Virus record (IMG/VR): IMGVR_UViG_3300033997_000327
Coordinates: 1-27,215 of that record
DNA length: 27,215 bases
Source: a virus
Direction: 5' to 3' (one strand)
The notes below the pieces were generated by a model. The model was not told where the DNA came from. It searched no databases and saw only the letters and a program-made list of their open reading frames with translations. The position numbers and the translations under genes are program-made. Positions 4,715-21,065 of the stretch are shown piece by piece. Position 1 is the stretch's first letter; each line of letters opens with the position of its first letter.

Positions 4715-5554
4715 TTAACCTCGCAGGGTTGAAAGTGTGGTTTGCAGCAGGGCTGCTACGTCATCGCCAGCGCACGGCGTGGCAGTTGTGGCAGCGCTCG
4801 GCTTGCCGGAAAAAAGTGCTTTGAAGGTGTCGCGTCGCGACGAACGGCTGTATCCGGCCTTCGCCATGGCCGCCTCAACTTGGGCCAGGGCCCGCCGCTC
4901 CGCGCCGGATTTGGGCGCCTCGCTGATCGCGGCCCCGTCCAGTAGCCCGGTGGCGAACCCATCTTCCACGGCCTGGTCGGCGCCAATCCAGGTTTCCTGG
5001 TCCATCAAGACCGCAGCCTGTTTGGCCGTCATTCCGGTGCGGGCGGCATAGACCTGCGCCATGGCCGCGTCGAACGGCTCCAGCTTCGCCGCAGCATCGA
5101 CCAGGTCATGGCGATTGCCGATGGCGACGGCCCAAGCGTTGTGGATCATCAGGAAAGACCCTTGCCCCATCAGAATTTCGTCCCCCGCCATGGCGATGAC
5201 CGAAGCCGCCGAGGCGGCCAGACCCAACACCTTGATGGTGACCTTGGCCTTGTGTTCGCGCAGAGCGTTGTAGATCGCCACGCCTTCGAAGAAATTCCCG
5301 CCAGGCGAATTGACATTGACCGTCACGTCCCGCGCACCGATGGAGCGCAGTGCAGACTGGATGCGCTTGACGGTCACGCCGCTTCCGTCCCAGGCTTCCC
5401 CGATGGCGTCATAGATCGAGATGCTGGCGTCCTCGGTGTCGTTTGCGGCGCGCACTTGGGGCGCCCACCGCTCCAGGGCGTCAGGCCGAAGATCGAAGTC
5501 GGCGGCGCCCAACCGGGCATCCGCCTTTATTTCAGGCAGTTGGATCAGGCTCAT
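4715..5554 (-). CDS. ClpP-like head maturation protease
   Basis: A 279-residue protein carries the Clp-protease fold. Expected triad residues are visible: Ser in GLAASAASVIAMAG, His in FLMIHNAWAVAIG and Asp within WIGADQAVEDGFATG. The earlier VNVNSPGGNFFEGVAIYN segment also matches. It processes the capsid delta domain during prohead maturation. I prefer the ATG at 5554 over one 18 codons upstream because AAGGA lies about 8 bases before it and the shorter N-terminus fits the family. It overlaps the end of the portal gene by 23 bp. The C-terminal 60 residues are a less conserved tail. Confidence 0.9.
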   Translation of the reverse strand: MSLIQLPEIKADARLGAADFDLRPDALERWAPQVRAANDTEDASISIYDAIGEAWDGSGVTVKRIQSALRSIGARDVTVNVNSPGGNFFEGVAIYNALREHKAKVTIKVLGLAASAASVIAMAGDEILMGQGSFLMIHNAWAVAIGNRHDLVDAAAKLEPFDAAMAQVYAARTGMTAKQAAVLMDQETWIGADQAVEDGFATGLLDGAAISEAPKSGAERRALAQVEAAMAKAGYSRSSRRDTFKALFSGKPSAATTATPCAGDDVAALLQTTLSTLRG

Positions 5555-17532: not shown

Positions 17533-17818
17533 GCGCTCACGCTCTTTAACAACCTGCCGCCGATGTTGCTCGCCCCGCCTGTGGGGCGTTCCCCGGCTCA
17601 ATCGCACCTACGGGCATGGCCGTAGCTCTGCGCGGTGTCCCTACCGTATCCAGCCCGCCATAGCGCGGTTCACGGTCAAGAGGGTGAGGCGTAGACGGCC
17701 AAGACAAGCAACGGTCACGCCGGTTGGAATCCCGGCCAGCTTTACCCGATCCGCTGAAAAGCGGGTTTCGGCCAGCGCTGCGGGTCAGTGCTGACCGAAG
17801 CCACTCAAGGAGACCCAC
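17533..17818 (+). promoter_or_regulatory. P_L leader with boxA-like antitermination signal
   Basis: This 286-bp untranslated leader starts with CGCTCTTTAACA (17540-17551), a perfect match to the bacterial boxA consensus bound by NusB/NusE. It lies at or within a few bases of the expected transcript start. A GC hairpin CGCCCC-6 nt-GGGGCG follows 19 bp later (17571-17588) and may play the part of boxB. Near the end are CCGC-tgaaaa-GCGG (17751-17764) and the palindrome GGTCAG-tg-CTGACC (17783-17796). I find no supported gene in it; an Arg-rich open frame across it has no ribosome binding site. Confidence 0.65.
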
Positions 17819-18545: not shown

Positions 18546-18731
18546 ATGAACGACGCCGAATCCCTCTCCTACGCAATCTCCAAGCAACTCGCCACCGCCC
18601 AGTACCTCAGTACGAACTATGGCGATATCCCCCTCGATGAAGAAATGCGCGCCGCTGTCGACAACGCAGTGCGGCCCATCCTCAAGCGCCGCTTGAATGC
18701 GGTCATCGTCGAAGCTCAACCCCAGCAGTGA
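18546..18731 (+). CDS. small acidic protein, unknown function
   Basis: A 61-residue protein begins MNDAESLSYAISKQLATAQY and continues in a helical pattern (DEEMRAAVDNAVRPILKRRL). AAGGAG lies 7 bases before the ATG. It follows a GC hairpin, and the next gene begins 10 bp after its stop. No family recognised. Confidence 0.6.
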   Translation: MNDAESLSYAISKQLATAQYLSTNYGDIPLDEEMRAAVDNAVRPILKRRLNAVIVEAQPQQ

Positions 18732-18741
18732 GGAAGCGACC

Positions 18742-18972
18742 ATGGAAGAAGTGACCATTCACGAGGCCGGCGCCCTGCTCGCCGCTACCGGCCGCATCAT
18801 GATGCGCCAAGGCGTGCATTTCGACGTGTTGGTCGGTGACTGCCGCGATGATTGCAGCGATGCCGACTTACTGGAAATCATGGGTAATGCCGGCGTGCCG
18901 GAAGAGCGGGCGCGCGAACTGCTCCGCATGGACCTCAGCGACGTGATCGCCGACCTGCACTTCGGCACTTGA
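18742..18972 (+). CDS. small acidic protein, unknown function
   Basis: A 76-residue acidic protein begins MEEVTIHEAGALLAATGRIM and ends DLSDVIADLHFGT. It has a Cys pair (GDCRDDCSDADLLEIMG). AGGAAG lies 6 bases before the ATG, just after the preceding stop. It may be anti-restriction or DNA-mimic like by charge, but that is speculation. It is the last plus-strand gene before the inverted rpiB insertion. Confidence 0.58.
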   Translation: MEEVTIHEAGALLAATGRIMMRQGVHFDVLVGDCRDDCSDADLLEIMGNAGVPEERARELLRMDLSDVIADLHFGT

Positions 18973-18984
18973 CAGCCCCGGCTC

Positions 18985-19017
18985 ATGCCCCGCGAGCGGG
19001 GTATCGGCAGGCGCTGT
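18985..19017 (+). repeat. stem-loop repeat, left copy flanking rpiB
   Basis: The stem ATGCCCC / GGGGTAT with a 6-base loop is followed by CGGCAGGCGCTGT. The 33-bp element matches 19632-19664 at 26 of 33 positions. Several differences fall within the stem and keep it paired (ATGCCTT / AGGGCAT in the other copy). The last 12 bases, GGCAGGCGCTGT, are identical. Confidence 0.65.
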
Positions 19018-19033
19018 ATCGAATCGGGCATCC

Positions 19034-19480
19034 TTAGCCGGGGGTGCAAGACCGCTTCATAGCCTCCAGCATGTCGACTCTCAGTTGATGCCGACCGCCC
19101 TCAAACGGGGTACTGAAGAACACGTCGATGCACTCGCGCGCCGTATCGAAGTCAATGAGCCTGCTACCCAATACCAACACGTTCGCGTCGTTGTGTTGAC
19201 GGCTGAGGCGCGCCATGTCCGCATTCACACATAGCGCTGCCCGAACCGCGGCGAAGCGATTGGCCGCAATGGAAATCCCGATCCCAGACCCACAGATGGC
19301 AACCCCTCGTTGGGCCTTGCCATCTGTTATCGCTTCCCCAAGCCTGAAGCCGAATTCGGGGTAATCAACAGACTCGGACGAACTCGCGCCCAGGTCAAGC
19401 CAGTCGATACCGCCGTATGCCTGCTTCAGCAGCTCTTTAAGTTCGTAGCCGGCATGGTCTGACGCGATAGCAATCATCAT
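19034..19480 (-). CDS. rpiB: ribose-5-phosphate isomerase B-like protein (cargo gene)
   Basis: A 148-residue protein, normal RpiB length. It has ASDHAGYELKELLK at the N-terminus, the SESVDYPEFGFRLGEAI segment, the substrate-binding loop ICGSGIGISIAANRF with Cys63, and ARLSRQHNDANVLVLGSRLI. The family interconverts ribose-5-phosphate and ribulose-5-phosphate; related LacAB and sugar isomerases share the fold, so the substrate here is not certain. All expected active-site residues appear present. It lies antisense inside a phage operon, with its own promoter-like sequence and a flanking direct repeat, so it is probably a cargo gene rather than phage core. GGAG lies about 9 bases before the ATG; a second ATG follows at once. 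Confidence 0.92.
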   Translation of the reverse strand: MMIAIASDHAGYELKELLKQAYGGIDWLDLGASSSESVDYPEFGFRLGEAITDGKAQRGVAICGSGIGISIAANRFAAVRAALCVNADMARLSRQHNDANVLVLGSRLIDFDTARECIDVFFSTPFEGGRHQLRVDMLEAMKRSCTPG

Positions 19481-19532
19481 TTCTAACTCCGCCCCTCTCT
19501 AGATGGAAAAGCCGCAAATTCACCCGGGGCAG

Positions 19533-19560
19533 CATATAGGCGAATGCGCCGCACTGTCCA
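19533..19560 (-). promoter_or_regulatory. sigma70-like promoter for rpiB
   Basis: On the minus strand TGGACA (19555-19560) and TATATG (19533-19538) are 16 bp apart, about 50 bp before the rpiB ATG. Five of six -35 bases match consensus. This would allow rpiB expression in the lysogen independently of phage promoters. Confidence 0.55.
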
Positions 19561-19631
19561 GAATGCCCGGCTTGCGCGCACATAGGGCCCCGCGACCCCA
19601 GCCCATTTACCCCTCGTACCAGCCTCTCCCA

Positions 19632-19664
19632 ATGCCTTGCTCGCAGGGCATTGGCAGGCGCTGT
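19632..19664 (+). repeat. stem-loop repeat, right copy flanking rpiB
   Basis: The stem ATGCCTT / AGGGCAT with a 6-base loop is followed by TGGCAGGCGCTGT. It is the counterpart of 18985-19017, 33 bp long, 26 of 33 identical. A tiny ORF for a 25-residue peptide starts 27 bp downstream. Confidence 0.65.
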
Positions 19665-19691
19665 TGCCTGATCCCCTACCTGGAATTCCCC

Positions 19692-19769
19692 ATGATCAAG
19701 TTCATCGAAGCCCTGCTCGACATTCTCGCGCCCATTCTCAGCGTCCTGGACCGCAACGGAAAGCTGTAA
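19692..19769 (+). CDS. putative 25-residue amphipathic peptide
   Basis: The ORF begins MIKFIEALLDILAPILSVLD and ends RNGKL. It is short, hydrophobic and amphipathic, like small phage membrane peptides or type I toxins. GGAA lies about 7 bases upstream of the ATG. The peptide could alternatively be a leader controlling the genes beyond. Coding status is uncertain because of its length; the position between a stem-loop repeat and a long structured element is suggestive. Confidence 0.4.
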   Translation: MIKFIEALLDILAPILSVLDRNGKL

Positions 19770-19780
19770 TTCCCCGCCCT

Positions 19781-19898
19781 GCCCCGCACGCCGGGGCGGC
19801 TTCGGAGAGCGGGCCGGCGCCGCTTCGTCACCGGCGCAAAAAGTGACTTTCTTCCTGGAAGTGAACTGATCGGGCCTTCCGGCCTGCTCTCCGAAGCC
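19781..19898 (+). ncRNA. highly structured RNA element between tiny ORFs
   Basis: A hairpin GCCCCG-cacgc-CGGGGC (19781-19797) is directly followed by a 20-bp stem whose arms are 19798-19817 and 19879-19898. All 20 positions pair if one G-U is allowed. The 61-nt interior holds two smaller stems: CGCCG/CGGCG at 19818-19822 and 19832-19836, and ACTTT/GAAGT near 19846-19862. No ORF covers it. It could be a regulatory leader of the next two genes, a small RNA, or an RNA-processing site. No T-run follows. Confidence 0.55.
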
Positions 19899-19926
19899 TC
19901 ACCACCGCGCATCCGCGCAAATCCCC

Positions 19927-20333: not shown

Positions 20334-21065
20334 TTAGAGCTTGTCGAAGTTGACGCGCCGCAAAGACGTCCGTGTCCACTTGGCCAGTTCGACGCGTGCA
20401 GAGGAAACCACCGCTAAAGCAACTTTAATGTGGCTGGCCCATCTTTTAACAAGACGCATTCGGTCTGCTGGCGAGGTAAAGCGGTTATGCATCGCATCGC
20501 GCCACAGCACAACGCTTGCCCTCGTATGGCTCAACCGCGCCAACCCTGCGGCAATGTCGTCGGCACATTTATCGGGTAGAGCTTCGATCAATAGCAATTG
20601 CTCCAGCGCAACGCCGAGGTCAATGCTCCGAAGCTGATTAGTCAACTCGTGGAACGTTTCCGGCTCGATGTCGATTGAGGCATAAGTCTGCAGGCCTGAA
20701 AGCACAAATTCGATCTCGTCCTCAATCATTCGAAGGCGAGGTTCCAACGCAGCCGCGGCCAACGCCGCCAAACGATGGTTGCGATCTTGCTGATCGCGTT
20801 GCACTCGCTCTTGCTTCTCTTTTTCCCGATTCGCTGAATGGCGGGCCTGCCAGAGCGCTACGCCAACCGCGGCAATAGTCGCACCAACAGTTCCAATAGC
20901 CGTCATCACATCCAGGATTCTGACGTTCGCCAGAGCTTCAGGTCGATCGCGCCAAATCCATCCAAGCGCAAACCCGGCTATGAGCATCGCTATTGCGACG
21001 GATAGCCAGAAAGCCGTTTGACGCCAGTCTTCAGAGAAAACTTCCCTCACCCCGAATTTCCGCAT
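20334..21065 (-). CDS. two-helix membrane protein with coiled coil, probable cargo gene
   Basis: A 243-residue protein has two N-terminal transmembrane helices (AFWLSVAIAMLIAGFALGWI and ILDVMTAIGTVGATIAAVGV), then a strongly charged helix (RHSANREKEKQERVQRDQQD) likely to be a coiled coil, then a soluble helical domain. Such proteins occur as prophage cargo and some act in superinfection exclusion or abortive infection; no assignment is possible here. GAGG about 6 bases before the ATG and a CTGACA-17-TACGAT promoter-like pair upstream suggest autonomous expression. It is antisense inside the rightward operon and less GC-rich than neighbours. Confidence 0.68.
   Translation of the reverse strand: MRKFGVREVFSEDWRQTAFWLSVAIAMLIAGFALGWIWRDRPEALANVRILDVMTAIGTVGATIAAVGVALWQARHSANREKEKQERVQRDQQDRNHRLAALAAAALEPRLRMIEDEIEFVLSGLQTYASIDIEPETFHELTNQLRSIDLGVALEQLLLIEALPDKCADDIAAGLARLSHTRASVVLWRDAMHNRFTSPADRMRLVKRWASHIKVALAVVSSARVELAKWTRTSLRRVNFDKL

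Follow-up and report, generated by a model that had tools for sequence, protein, structure and literature searches.

The window, the whole stretch of DNA analysed here, is a virus record of 27,215 bases in which a gene for ribose-5-phosphate isomerase B (rpiB) lies between two groups of phage genes, with terminase, portal, protease, capsid and tail in one and repressor, ParB and integrase in the other. Its sequence identifies it as a temperate phage related to prophages of Achromobacter and Bordetella, and the host is presumed from these relatives. The rpiB gene is antisense to the flanking plus-strand phage genes, and the locus comprises the following features:

18697-18972 (+), hypothetical phage gene upstream, its stop codon in contact with hairpin copy 1
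18973-19016 (+), hairpin copy 1, immediately after the stop of the upstream gene, 17 nt from the rpiB stop
19018-19664 (equally 18973-19619; no strand), segment inserted relative to the empty site, from the empty-site comparison
19034-19480 (-), rpiB, ribose-5-phosphate isomerase B, 148 aa, a complete ORF with profile matches to TIGR01120 and PF02502
19531-19560 (-), weak promoter-like site for rpiB, TGGACA-18-TATGCT
19620-19663 (+), the diverged copy 2 of the hairpin (73% identity over 45 nt), with 18 of 20 positions pairing
19692-19769 (+), small ORF MIKFIEALLDILAPILSVLDRNGKL, of a family often found 3' of the hairpin in sibling phages
19778-19926 (+), downstream structured element with a 20-bp stem, GGCTTCGGAGAGCGGGCCGG..., the right-hand marker of the slot described below

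The rpiB product matches the curated equivalog profile TIGR01120 over residues 3-141 of 148 with 160.0 bits (cut-off 138.65), and PF02502 with 172 bits. A ribosome-binding site, GGAG, can be read 6 nt 5' of the ATG. The motifs SDHAGY, ICGSGIG, RQHNDAN and GGRHQxR align with solved RpiBs, and C63, H96, R130 and R134 have counterparts in E. coli RpiB (1nn4/2vvr), where the Cys and His are catalytic and the Arg residues bind phosphate. In the CG(T/S)G motif beside the Cys, Thr is replaced by Ser, which is common to the Achromobacter homologues. With full-length profile matches and aligned catalytic positions, the active site is predicted to be intact, as the sequence-only reading had proposed for this antisense gene among phage genes. 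The promoter-like site is sigma-70-like and matches at 9 of 12 positions, with a chance expectation of about 0.5, so the match is weak. No intrinsic (U-tract) terminator for rpiB was found in a search of the locus; hairpin copy 1, which starts 17 nt past the rpiB stop, has no U run. PADLOC gave no defence match for rpiB, nor for four further antisense proteins, of which three belong to the sibling slots described below and one to the window.

In the tree, the phage RpiB groups with the chromosomal RpiBs of Achromobacter (support 100/98), with 66-75% identity to the full-length homologues, and no particular Achromobacter RpiB is singled out as donor. The codon differences concentrate at third positions (54-64%, compared with 16-23% at first and second positions), which indicates that RpiB is kept under purifying selection. 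Within Achromobacter, RpiB is accessory, as about 11 of 43 genomes give a full-length match, and the chromosomal genes are scattered and apparently solitary. RpiA is encoded in 41 of the same 43 genomes, so the basic supply of ribose-5-phosphate does not need RpiB. The gene has been listed, with manA and glgA, among viral auxiliary metabolic genes (PMC6359870), which the window gene resembles in being phage-encoded. It differs from them in lying in a temperate phage, in a slot of lysogen-type cargo, and in being nearest to Achromobacter chromosomal proteins: a single-protein RpiB scan of viral contigs brought up no close relative, and the alignment query returned only environmental viral RpiBs, at no more than 47% identity among full-length matches.

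The rpiB gene is flanked by two 33-bp repeats (18985-19017 and 19632-19664) with seven differences, so that the earlier count of 26/33 identical positions is exact; the repeats extend to 45 nt at 73% identity (18973-19017 and 19620-19664). Folding of both copies shows that the repeat ends are the ends of a hairpin, a discrete imperfect palindrome of 44 nt (CAGC...GCTG) with the 33-bp repeat as its core, and that both copies adopt this same fold. Pairing survives the changes between them, with C-G becoming U-A at one pair and G-U becoming G-C at another, and these changes bear out the earlier observation that the stems are kept. The two copies have in common an exact 12-nt core, GGCAGGCGCTGT, and the diverged copy 2, ATGCCTTGCTCGCAGGGCAT, stands ahead of the small ORF. 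An alternative fold, with two tandem hairpins (an ATGCC stem and a CAGGC/GCCTG stem), is adopted by the sibling locus L002, whereas the window copies form one long hairpin, and we therefore consider both folds as possible states. A reading of the hairpin as a leader peptide (ATG CCC CGC...) was set aside: in L015 and copy 2 the stem changes alter the amino acids and keep the pairs, and the ATG shares the frame of the small ORF in the window but does not do so in L002. Neither hairpin copy matched Rfam.

Hairpin relatives were gathered by ParB, by the core sequence and by a covariance model. The 25 distinct versions found in related prophages have 14-18 of 20 positions paired, with a nearly fixed 3' arm, GGCAGGCGCTG, and a variable 5' arm in which pairing is largely kept. 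Compared with slid and shuffled controls, the covariation beats most on cell counts and score, but the number of pairs does not beat the shuffles, and for this reason we consider the covariation as moderate support for the structure. The covariance-model search finds 0-3 copies per Achromobacter-group genome, so the hairpin is not a genome-wide repeat. A slightly decayed copy (L128, A. kerstersii G005:C9:192273-192315) lies among chromosomal-looking genes, including an ECF sigma factor and an oxidoreductase, and is flanked on either side by small secreted-type proteins encoded antisense.

The repeat is short and 73% identical, and this phage has many GC-rich hairpins, which would suit a chance palindrome at copy 2 and the entry of rpiB by plain illegitimate recombination. 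We find this scarcely credible, as the best 45-nt match between the rpiB flanks (33/45) lies above all 500 dinucleotide-shuffled pairs (mean 23.4, maximum 29), and the exact 12-nt core is followed, after copy 2, by TTGCCTGATCCCC, the leader that siblings usually have at this point and that copy 1 lacks. Copy 2 also scores 57.6 bits with the covariance model, although it is itself part of that model.

The earlier proposal had led to the expectation that a single stem-loop would remain in siblings lacking rpiB. This is what is observed: the hairpin usually occurs once in siblings, and those without rpiB (L002, L009, L015, L018, L020, L117 and others) have exactly one, directly 5' of the same small-peptide gene, and the contrary pattern, in which all relatives would carry rpiB without repeats, is not seen. 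Hairpins with the common 5' arm usually lie flush against the stop codon of the preceding gene, which varies between phages. In most siblings the sequence 3' of the hairpin is TTGCCTGA, or a shorter form with CCTGA; a small ORF of one family often comes next, and the structured stretch lies beyond. In the window, rpiB-side DNA replaces the usual TTGCCTGA after copy 1. We define the slot as the interval from the hairpin to the downstream structured RNA. It measures 155-169 nt in 12 distinct loci where it is empty and 258-3109 nt in 14 loci where it is filled, with cargo sizes read from ORFs rather than annotation and some loci possibly near-duplicates of each other.

The left flank of rpiB is 97.3% identical to L121, 96.2% to L018 and 94.4% to L003, and this homology ends at 19017, the hairpin end. 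In the best empty-site match, L117, the left flank joined to position 19665 onward aligns along the sibling with few mismatches and small gaps. The join can be placed so that the insert is 19018-19664 or equally 18973-19619, an ambiguity that is due to the repeated hairpin. The inserted segment has a GC content of 0.59, compared with 0.65 on its left and 0.645 on its right. The slot taken up here by rpiB and its upstream region is, in relatives, either empty or filled with other cargo.

The sequence-only reading had suggested insertion by recombination at stem-loop boundaries. For rpiB, insertion at a hairpin boundary is supported by the one-hairpin siblings, by the end of left homology at the hairpin end, and by a second, unrelated hairpin-cargo-hairpin locus (L021/L135), and hairpin-to-hairpin recombination fits the window locus. 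The simplest account is an exchange through the hairpin with a phage bearing a diverged version of it. An ancestor with a single-hairpin slot would have gained rpiB, its upstream region and the diverged hairpin as one segment, probably from another phage carrying its own hairpin version, by a crossover through the 12 identical nucleotides GGCAGGCGCTGT with homology extending beyond them. Against this account, the two copies are no more than 73% identical, and the searches found no donor phage with rpiB and a copy-2-type hairpin. As a general rule, the proposal does not stand: among the 14 filled loci, only two show a hairpin pair and the other 12 a single hairpin, and the cargo may lie 5' of the hairpin, 5' of the small ORF or 3' of it. 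Hairpin exchange is therefore neither the general rule nor the only route of insertion, and, since most filled slots have a single hairpin, the element need not be a recombination site.

Several of the cargo genes around the hairpin are antisense, like rpiB. This cargo includes a cold-shock protein (CSD; L019, L046), a Mn-catalase (Mn_catalase; L023), and a histidine kinase with a response regulator (HisKA/Response_reg) inside the doubly flanked locus L021/L135. A BLUF-EAL protein (L042/L133), a response regulator-HD-GYP protein (HD; L049), a metallo-beta-lactamase-fold hydrolase (Lactamase_B; L026) and a reverse transcriptase/Avd pair (L118) are described only as near the hairpin and not as cargo of a bounded slot, because the right-hand marker was not located at these loci. 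In L118, and also L044, the stretch from the hairpin to about 3 kb downstream contains a reverse transcriptase (RVT_1), an Avd-like protein (below cut-off) and two lectin-like genes of similar C-termini; these genes look like a diversity-generating retroelement directly after the hairpin. The cargo interval of L010 contains a broken tRNA-like sequence (4940-5065).

The single hairpin in 12 of 14 filled slots would also be expected if the hairpin played no part in insertion and served the small-peptide gene as a leader or intergenic RNA element, or were a transcript-end or processing hairpin. In that case cargo, hairpin and small ORF would have moved as one block in an ordinary mosaic swap between phages, and copy 1 would be the leftover hairpin of the recipient. 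In many siblings the hairpin lies 5' of a gene of the small-ORF family, which agrees with such a swap, as do the listed common-5'-arm hairpins, nearly all of which directly abut the stop codon of a variable upstream gene, and the loci L022, L037 and L041, where an unrelated antisense gene lies directly 5' of the hairpin, as rpiB does before copy 2. This explanation, however, gives no reason for the break in homology at the hairpin end, nor for the joining of several unrelated modules at the same 44-nt element, and we consider it rather unlikely.

The hairpin could instead be an active, structure-recognised recombination site, either integron attC-like or IS200/REP-like, next to which a dedicated recombinase inserts cassettes. 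In favour of this, the palindrome is a discrete one of 44 nt whose 3' arm, GGCAGGCGCTG, is conserved and whose 5' arm varies yet still pairs; the DNA to either side of it is varied, and two cargo loci are flanked by hairpins. Such systems have a recombinase nearby and many hairpin-flanked cassettes, whereas here no recombinase gene was recognised beside the slot, the 0-3 copies per genome are unlike REP arrays, most cargo lacks two flanking hairpins (2 of 14 filled loci have them), and the join points differ by several nucleotides. An active site of this kind is thus most improbable. That the hairpin is a dedicated site for single-gene cassette exchange among Alcaligenaceae prophages, a phage counterpart of the integron, we regard as very improbable.

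The reading that we favour, and consider probable, is that rpiB is a moron, an antisense accessory insert at a hotspot bounded by the hairpin on the left and by the small-peptide gene and structured RNA on the right. Morons are accessory genes located between genes that are contiguous in relatives, typically with their own promoter and terminator (PMC3029335), and rpiB is absent from close relatives with contiguous flanks (L117, L018, L002 and others). It also resembles morons in its opposite strand, its GC content below that of its neighbours and the variation of cargo between relatives; it differs in having only a weak promoter match and no intrinsic terminator found, and in that a conserved hairpin, duplicated on either side of the cargo, marks its site. 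The same work (PMC3029335) also discusses short conserved sequences at the boundaries of mosaic phage modules, and the hairpin is like them in lying at the join of unrelated modules and in being able to support homologous exchange. In contrast to these, it folds as a 44-nt palindrome, of which empty sites have one copy, whereas two different cargoes are each surrounded by two. RpiB on viral genomes (PMC6359870), morons and boundary sequences (PMC3029335) are already known, whereas a limited literature search found no description of this hairpin-marked cargo slot.

As a moron, rpiB would be transcribed from its own promoter, and mainly in the lysogen, because it opposes phage transcription. The additional RpiB-type isomerase may then give the lysogen a small gain in fitness. 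Nucleotide supply through the pentose phosphate pathway, suggested earlier as the benefit, is weakly supported and not specially favoured, given that RpiA is so widespread in Achromobacter and that the other slot cargo concerns stress and signalling. In view of this company, a benefit to the lysogen appears more likely than a lytic role in nucleotide supply. The slot is a fixed site at which a temperate phage family repeatedly swaps host-type genes, for stress, c-di-GMP signalling and central metabolism, into Achromobacter-type hosts, and the empty-site series makes the insertion history readable. If the hairpin guides exchange, it would offer a testable answer to how morons enter without breaking the phage genome, as well as a sequence handle for finding further lysogenic cargo.

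The small ORFs encode amphipathic peptides of 24-25 aa (MIKFIEALLDILAPILSVLDRNGKL; MLAAFIRFLEELIDVANFGRDVSK). Their reading frames are conserved and the DNA upstream of them varies, and their products could be small membrane-active peptides. The structured element that follows (19778-19926; folding z -4.1) is also present in L002, L003, L004, L009, L018 and L117, and its 3' end is the start of a small membrane-protein gene. It was unmatched in Rfam and is possibly an undescribed phage RNA. Elsewhere in the window, Rfam recognises a Burkholderiales-2 RNA (RF02917, 92.8 bits) at 17559-17631 (-), and about 200 nt around this match are 87% identical in Bordetella avium phages. A second antisense gene (20334-21065, -), with low GC3 (0.586), encodes a 243-aa membrane/coiled-coil protein for which no family match was found. 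Look-alikes of this protein occur in the sibling slots L005, L021, L022 and L116, and the gene is possibly a second moron.
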